Source: Treponema sp. (GTDB lineage: Bacteria > Spirochaetota > Spirochaetia > Treponematales > Treponemataceae). From it: 64,000 bases of DNA. The stretch is taken from contig JAILRG010000132.1 of the NCBI GenBank assembly GCA_024698325.1, positions 1 through 64,000 of the forward strand, given 5' to 3'. Numbering within the stretch: position 1 is the stretch's first letter; each line of letters begins with the position of its first letter. The notes beneath the pieces were generated by a model. It saw only the letters and a list, made by a program, of their open reading frames with translations. It was not told the DNA's origin and did no database searches. The position numbers and the translations under genes were made by a program. This document shows positions 7,062-9,146 of this stretch, in pieces.

Positions 7062-7134
7062 CTGGGACGACAGGATTCGAACCTGTGGAATACCGGCACC
7101 AAAAGCCGGGGGCTTACCGCTTGCCGACGTCCCA
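7062..7134 (-). tRNA. tRNA-Gln (anticodon TTG)
   Basis: Minus strand TGGGACGTCGGCAAGCGGTAAGCCCCCGGCTTTTGGTGCCGGTATTCCACAGGTTCGAATCCTGTCGTCCCAG; complete cloverleaf, loop TT-TTG-GT, discriminator G; CCA not encoded. Confidence 0.95.
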
Positions 7135-7147
7135 AAAATTTACAATT

Positions 7148-7477: not shown

Positions 7478-8344
7478 TCAAGTCAGCGCAAGGACACAGC
7501 GTTTCCATGTTTTCTGCAGCAAATTATATGCTTTTGTTGCCGAATCTGCCGAATCATACACGCCAAAAACTACAGCGCCCGAACCGGTCATCTCCGACCA
7601 AACAGCTCCGCTATTTCGTATATCCTGTAATGCATGTCCGATTACCGGATATTTTGTAACAAGAGCAGGCGTAAATGTATTAGCAAACGTCCAGTCCTTC
7701 ACAGAACCGGCATACATACGCTCAAGCTCTAAAAAAGGCGGGCATCGAACATCGCTGCCTGCCATAAACGCCGCATCTACCAGACCATACGCCTCTTTTG
7801 TAGAGGAATGTACTTCCGGCAGAACCAGCACGAAATGTAAATCTTTACGGCGCAGGATTGTCTGAACAACCTCGCCCCTTCCGCTCACCAGCGCAGCGCC
7901 CGTTTCATCTTTACAGTGCATAAAGAAAAACACATCACTGCCCACATTCGCTGCTATAGCATCCAGCAAGTCCTGTGTAAGTGCAGTTTCCGTAAGCCGC
8001 GCAAAAGCCTTTACGAAGGAAGCCGCATCCGAAGAGCCGCCCCCAAGACCACCGCCAGCCGGAATACGCTTGGTAAGCATTACCTGCACGCCAGTATGAA
8101 CGCCGGTTAAGCGGCAGAACTCACGGTATGCAGCTGTTATCGTATTTTCAGCCGGGAGCGTCATCTGCTCACAACTGACAATGCATCTTTCATTCTCCTG
8201 TAACGGACGTATCACGATATCATCATAAAAATCAACCGTCTGAAAAATGCTCTCGATGTTATGAAATCCGTCCTCTCTCCGAGGCAGAACCCTCAGACCG
8301 ATATTCACCTTTGCAGGCGCACGAATTTGCACATCGGATAACAT
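7478..8344 (-). CDS. ispE: 4-diphosphocytidyl-2-C-methyl-D-erythritol kinase
   Basis: GHMP kinase motif KRIPAGGGLGGGSSDAASF; APAKVNIGLRVLPRREDGFHNIESIF. Confidence 0.94.
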   Translation of the reverse strand: MLSDVQIRAPAKVNIGLRVLPRREDGFHNIESIFQTVDFYDDIVIRPLQENERCIVSCEQMTLPAENTITAAYREFCRLTGVHTGVQVMLTKRIPAGGGLGGGSSDAASFVKAFARLTETALTQDLLDAIAANVGSDVFFFMHCKDETGAALVSGRGEVVQTILRRKDLHFVLVLPEVHSSTKEAYGLVDAAFMAGSDVRCPPFLELERMYAGSVKDWTFANTFTPALVTKYPVIGHALQDIRNSGAVWSEMTGSGAVVFGVYDSADSATKAYNLLQKTWKRCVLALT

Positions 8345-8456: not shown

Positions 8457-8486
8457 TTGACATTACAAATACACTGGCTTTATAGT
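8457..8486 (+). promoter_or_regulatory. Sigma-70-type promoter of the acidic-protein gene
   Basis: TTGACA-N18-TATAGT, followed by GGTAGC then ATG at 8493. Confidence 0.8.
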
Positions 8487-8492
8487 GGTAGC

Positions 8493-8750
8493 ATGGCAAA
8501 CGAAGGCACTTATTTCGACCCGTCAGAGATGGAAGCGTATGGATTCTCCTATGATGATGAATACAATGATGACGTCTCTGAAGAAGATGACTTTGAGGAC
8601 GAAGACGATTACGACGACTTCGATGATGACACATTGTATGAAGACAGCTTCGACGATGATTTAGCTGCGGATGATGACCTTGACGAAGATTTTGATGACT
8701 TCGATGATGATTCCGCGGATGACAACGGATTCGAAGACGACTTCAACTAA
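8493..8750 (+). CDS. Extremely acidic 85-aa protein of unknown function
   Basis: MANEGTYFDPSEMEAYGFSYDD...; 33 Asp + 11 Glu, no Lys/Arg/His; own promoter and terminator. Confidence 0.8.
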   Translation: MANEGTYFDPSEMEAYGFSYDDEYNDDVSEEDDFEDEDDYDDFDDDTLYEDSFDDDLAADDDLDEDFDDFDDDSADDNGFEDDFN

Positions 8751-8751
8751 A

Positions 8752-8789
8752 ACAAAAAAAAGAGCGCCGTTATAGCGCTCTTTTTTTTG
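8752..8789. terminator. Bidirectional terminator between convergent genes
   Basis: aaaaaaaaagAGCGCcgttataGCGCTcttttttttg. Confidence 0.85.
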
Positions 8790-9146
8790 CTACTTCAGGA
8801 CAGTTCCTGCGTGCCAGAGTTTTTCAAGCTCATAGAATTCGCGGGCAGACGCTGACATCAAATGCACGACAACCGGGCCGATATCAATCAGATTCCAGTC
8901 ATCGCCATCAGGAAGCTTGTTGTGAGTCTGATGGATCTGCATGTTATGAGCCTTTACATAGTCGGAAACCTGCTTTACAAGTCCCTGCCAGTGGGCCGAG
9001 CTCTTAATTGTTGCAATAACAAAACAATCCGTCCAGCTGTTCAGCTCTGAAACATCAATAACGGTTACCTGCTCACCTTTGCCATCTTCCAAAACCTGCG
9101 CAATTTCCAGCGCCTGTGTTTTAATCTCATCACTAATCATAAACAT
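8790..9146 (-). CDS. rsfS: Ribosomal silencing factor RsfS (Iojap)
   Basis: ELNSWTDCFVIATIKSSAHWQGLV; GPVVVHLMSASAREFYELEKLW. Confidence 0.94.
   Translation of the reverse strand: MFMISDEIKTQALEIAQVLEDGKGEQVTVIDVSELNSWTDCFVIATIKSSAHWQGLVKQVSDYVKAHNMQIHQTHNKLPDGDDWNLIDIGPVVVHLMSASAREFYELEKLWHAGTVLK

Follow-up and report, generated by a model that had tools for sequence, protein, structure and literature searches.

A small, highly acidic and predicted disordered protein family beside rsfS and ispE in Treponema and its order

The C-terminal region of the delta subunit (RpoE) of Bacillus RNA polymerase is 83 residues long and carries a charge of -47 (PMC7749165). In size and charge this acidic, disordered stretch resembles a protein encoded in a Treponema genome, which has 85 residues and a net charge of -44. 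The two differ in several respects: the Treponema protein is the product of a stand-alone gene, it lacks the folded N-terminal HARE-HTH domain of delta (PF05066), and it belongs to a family with an aromatic ladder and a C-terminal motif of its own. The family gave no match to PF05066, and searches of 16 genomes in the order, including the one studied here, did not find the domain, while controls from Bacillus, Lactococcus and Thermus were positive. Because the domain that defines delta is absent, the acidic protein is not a delta subunit. Size and charge would be weak grounds for ascribing a delta-like role to it.

Three other proteins invite comparison. CrsL of actinobacteria is an example of a tiny disordered protein that can act on RNA polymerase (PMC12709188). 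Like the family described here, it is very small and disordered, is confined to one large clade and was annotated as hypothetical until it was studied; it binds CarD and RNA polymerase, and its likeness to the acidic family is one of description, with no sequence relation seen. The DNA mimic Ocr of phage T7 (PMC7064336) is also small and very acidic, but Ocr is a compact folded phage dimer, whereas the protein considered here comes from a conserved chromosomal gene and has no predicted fold. Yeast Rpb6 (ABC23), which has an acidic stretch in its N-terminal tail, is the sole PDB sequence touched by our order-wide profile; the match is not significant (E = 0.13), and Rpb6 also has a folded domain.

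The acidic gene and its surroundings

The window, by which we mean the whole 64,000-nucleotide stretch that was analysed, belongs to a MAG of Treponema sp. The features of the locus are collected in Table 1. By direct reading, the frame runs from an ATG at 8493-8495 to a TAA stop codon at 8748-8750. Its translation agrees with the initial annotation, which had counted 33 D and 11 E and no K, R or H; it also contains 9 F, 6 Y and no C. Among the 277 window ORFs of at least 60 amino acids it is far ahead in acidity, with 45% D+E (counted from an upstream TTG) against 20% for the runner-up. No signal peptide was seen by eye.

The layout TTGACA-N18-TATAGT-GGTAGC-ATG claimed for this gene was read again at 8457-8495, with TTGACA at 8457-8462, an 18-nt spacer, TATAGT at 8481-8486 and GGTAGC directly before the ATG; there is indeed no Shine-Dalgarno sequence upstream. 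With 11 of 12 consensus bases, the promoter is the joint best within 5 kb. The gene had also been credited with its own terminator. A strong hairpin (folding energy -20.3 kcal/mol, z -5.9) does follow the stop codon, but it is the gene's own only in part: since it is symmetrical, flanked by A8 and by U8, it can serve the convergent rsfS as well, and it probably ends both transcripts. Sister lineages (L002, L003, L010, L161-L163, L165) have, just 3' of the acidic gene, a long hairpin terminator in which a CACACA loop recurs; Rfam gave no match for it. Elsewhere in the window, a tRNA-like sequence (7063-7135, minus strand; by eye) lies between the L25 and SpoVG genes.

Table 1. Features of the acidic gene locus in the window
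Feature	Position	Strand	Evidence
Sigma-70-type promoter, TTGACA-N18-TATAGT	8457-8486	+	11/12 matches; TTGAC(A/T)-N17/18 promoter at same place in relatives
Putative transcription start at or next to the A of the ATG (leaderless)	8493	+	Six-base spacing from -10; same layout heads ORFs of at least 85 aa at 12/15 matches in this genome
Acidic gene; product of 85 aa, net charge -44, predicted disordered	8493-8750	+	Synteny, selection, conservation
Conserved FSYDDEY core, codons 18-24	8544-8564	+	Column conservation in alignment of genus members
C-terminal FEDDFN, codons 80-85, counterpart of YDDFDE tail of other genera	8730-8747	+	Comparison with other genera
A/U-flanked symmetrical hairpin terminator, probably common with rsfS	8753-8789		Folding
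rsfS, convergent neighbour	8790-9146	-	ORF; relatives found with it
ispE, divergent neighbour	7478-8344	-	ORF; relatives found with it

Synteny, constraint and conserved residues

The initial annotation knew no family for this protein, and the searches bear this out: there was no credible profile match in Pfam, NCBIfam or PHROGs and no significant match in the PDB. Single members matched PSCyt2 in Pfam (E 0.004) and Cas13d in NCBIfam (E 0.03); both were taken as composition noise. We found no paper on the protein itself. AlphaFold2, which is weak on such compositions, gave no confident fold with either of two alignments (pLDDT 60 and 58). The family is predicted to be disordered, and the models may speak against a compact DNA-mimic fold. 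No domain fusion appeared in the long open frames inspected.

It had been foreseen that composition would blind similarity searches and that orthologs should be sought by synteny beside ispE and rsfS. We located relatives in this way, through the DNA around the two genes, and found them across the genus and the order. In most genus loci an acidic ORF lies between rsfS and ispE on the opposite strand, and these loci yielded 93 distinct candidate proteins. A search with a single sequence matched merely a handful of genus members. A profile search was positive in 128 of 196 genus genomes (65%), a lower bound on prevalence because three genomes that the profile did not report were found on inspection of the locus to carry the gene. 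Profile searches of the family and order had also led us to the view that the family ends at the genus border. This was wrong: the rsfS neighbourhood of 24 genomes from 19 other genera contains an acidic ORF in 17 cases, four other families of the order among them. In 15 genomes it lies between rsfS and ispE, and in two it adjoins rsfS, with ispE not seen within the piece examined. Composition hides this family from similarity search, and synteny reveals it at once.

Two genomes without an acidic ORF at this place were scanned further. One, complete at 1,139,633 bp, presumably about the size of the T. pallidum genome, has a single strongly acidic ORF (72 amino acids from its ATG, ending in DLDFDE), which adjoins ispE in divergent orientation. 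The first 1.2 Mb of the other, a 2.8-Mb genome, also contain a single such ORF; it ends in LDYDDFDE and lies at a different chromosomal place. Twenty-eight proteins sampled across the order have roughly 70 to 118 residues and net charges of -32 to -81. In the family D is about twofold more frequent than E. The neighbourhood across the order comprises rsfS, obg, rplU (L21), rpmA (L27) and, beyond spoVG, L25. TP0370, which is annotated as a pseudogene for some subspecies of T. pallidum, was considered as a candidate but could not be identified with the acidic gene, and we rest nothing on it.

The coding sequences are under strong constraint. In nearly all close pairs dN/dS lies between 0.02 and 0.2, with changes concentrated at codon position 3, and dN of the acidic protein falls below the ispE value in 10 of 15 comparable pairs. 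Synteny and selection together firmly exclude the possibility, raised by the initial annotation, that the frame is not conserved in relatives. From these comparisons we conclude that the window ORF is a real, protein-coding gene, and that its family, hitherto undescribed, consists of small and highly acidic proteins that are predicted to be disordered.

If charge alone mattered, exchanges between D and E would be nearly free. They are found in 51 of 877 GAN codons, against transversions in 67 of 332 fourfold codons of the same genes, which makes them about 3.5 times rarer per site; the difference in ts:tv between the two comparisons has a p-value of about 1E-9. This rarity indicates that selection acts on the choice of D versus E and not on charge alone. 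In an alignment of 43 genus members, 86-100% of the sequences have a hydrophobic residue, for the most part F or Y, at positions 18, 20, 24, 34, 40, 43, 49, 53, 67 and 80 (window protein numbering), and we regard these residues as a ladder of F/Y/L anchors kept by selection. Conservation spans the whole length of the protein. Most members from other genera end in YDDFDE or a similar sequence. The C-terminal pattern aromatic-acid-acid-F-acid occurs in 15 of 28 proteins compared with 0.5 expected in shuffles, a statistic that is somewhat inflated because the pattern was written post hoc; the C-terminus of the window protein matches it.

The start of the gene

The gene has the layout that we take as leaderless, namely a -10 element followed after 5-7 nt by the start codon, in the absence of a Shine-Dalgarno sequence. 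Going by the spacing alone, transcription would start at A8493. The ATG at this position is supported by the relatives, which start at the same place, about 16 residues before the FSY core. The leaderless mRNA proposed in the initial annotation is thus plausible for the window gene, but it is not a trait of the family. Most relatives have a similar TTGAC promoter, with 25-60 nt between the end of its -10 element and the start, and a Shine-Dalgarno sequence of at least four bases is present in 68 of 93 (some starts are uncertain); the six-base spacing with a plausible start was found in only one relative, L025. For these reasons we read leaderlessness here as a local, lineage-specific loss of the leader. 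Very short promoter-to-start distances at three further loci (L066, L067, L068) proved to be first-Met artefacts.

The fusion of promoter and ATG is general in the genus. The pattern TTGAC-N17/19-TANANT-N5/7-ATG occurs 15 times in this genome versus 2 times in the reversed control. ORFs of at least 85 amino acids follow 12 of these 15 matches, among them DeoR-, CRP-, TrpR- and CheA-like genes (named by eye). Across 39 genus genomes there are 764 matches versus 220 in the control; with the ATG moved five bases further the numbers are 338 and 243. Since the spacing of 5-7 nt is enriched throughout the genus, leaderless genes are probably an ordinary class in it. Leaderless genes have been mapped in the spirochaete Leptospira (PMC5243855); for Treponema we found no paper on leaderless genes with mapped starts.

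Several observations from these scans may be recorded. Besides the acidic gene, eleven ORFs of at least 85 amino acids in this genome (G000; loci L167-L181) begin with a fusion of promoter and ATG, which, with the enrichment across the genus, suggests an unmapped leaderless class in Treponema. Two of these loci, L175 (contig C82) and L178 (contig C128), are nearly identical TrpR/YerC-like genes (by eye) on short-flanked contigs, both with the leaderless layout; they may be a recent duplication or an assembly duplicate. Matches of the leaderless type are unusually numerous in genome G009 (47 versus 5 in the control).

Possible roles of the acidic protein

The initial annotation had named a DNA or RNA mimic, an acidic factor that binds the polymerase and a metal buffer as possible roles. 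We put at about 0.4 the probability that the family supplies some core machine of spirochaetes, with RNA polymerase and the ribosome as the likeliest, with a stand-alone, order-wide polyanionic factor as an accessory, one that would dock by its YDDFDE tail and aromatic ladder, is also present in a 1.14-Mb genome and has stayed nameless owing to its composition. In favor of the mechanism sketched below we count the synteny and the single copies in the two scanned genomes, the low dN/dS, the selection on D and E, the aromatic ladder, the C-terminal pattern, the lack of a predicted fold, the delta-like size and charge, the absence of a delta-type HARE-HTH protein from the 16 genomes searched and the precedent of CrsL. 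Against it counts that the family has no folded docking domain.

The best account we can offer of how such a factor would work is a tentative one. In the window lineage, the gene would be transcribed from a strong promoter straight onto its ATG and the leaderless mRNA translated, giving a stable, free cytoplasmic polyanion. The aromatic anchors and the C-terminus may then dock on a basic nucleic-acid-binding surface of the core machine, our first guess being RNA polymerase or its sigma factor and our second the ribosome or a ribosomal protein. The docked polyanion would compete with DNA or RNA and make release or recycling easier, which is the action ascribed to the acidic tail of delta on Bacillus RNA polymerase.

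A ribosomal partner would agree no less well with the neighborhood of rsfS, obg, L21, L27 and L25. The protein could be a chaperone or modulator dedicated to a basic ribosomal protein, to an assembly factor or to the ribosome, its acidic chain shielding the surfaces that bind rRNA, either before these are used or between rounds. The gene is kept in this ribosome-linked cluster across the order, but it runs opposite to its neighbors and in several genomes lies apart from rsfS or ispE, so that the cluster need not mean function, and we consider this account unlikely. Slightly more doubtful is a partnership with a basic nucleoid or nucleic-acid-binding protein, e.g., HU or the neighboring SpoVG, in which the acidic protein would keep its partner off DNA or RNA. 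Alternating acidic and aromatic residues might suit basic nucleic-acid-binding surfaces, and most loci have spoVG beyond ispE; the linkage of spoVG to the acidic gene, however, is not constant.

A buffer for charge or for metal (Mg2+ or Ca2+), in which bulk acidity alone is relevant, would agree with the excess of D over E. It is improbable in view of the selected D/E identity and aromatic positions, which argue against a simple buffer, of a constraint resembling that of neighboring enzymes, and of the C-terminal motif. It is still harder to believe that the frame is a regulatory leader whose acidic nascent chain destabilizes ribosomes and whose peptide is dispensable: D/E runs of this type are reported to cause intrinsic ribosome destabilization (PMC9718836), but the protein is conserved over its whole length, and the gene is followed by a terminator and then a convergent gene, which leaves no downstream target to control. 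That the frame is a compositional artefact, in which a non-coding or antisense tract of low complexity happens to be open, might be suggested by its low-complexity codons and by its lying antisense to the flanking operon, and is refuted by strong purifying selection in frame and order-wide synteny.

A gene that is kept order-wide under enzyme-like constraint, without a fold or a name, likely touches something central. One member occurs in a genome of what we take to be T. pallidum size and another in a genome of 2.8 Mb from the same family; the role may therefore be testable in cultured relatives. The family is also a concrete case in which composition can conceal a core protein family that synteny exposes.
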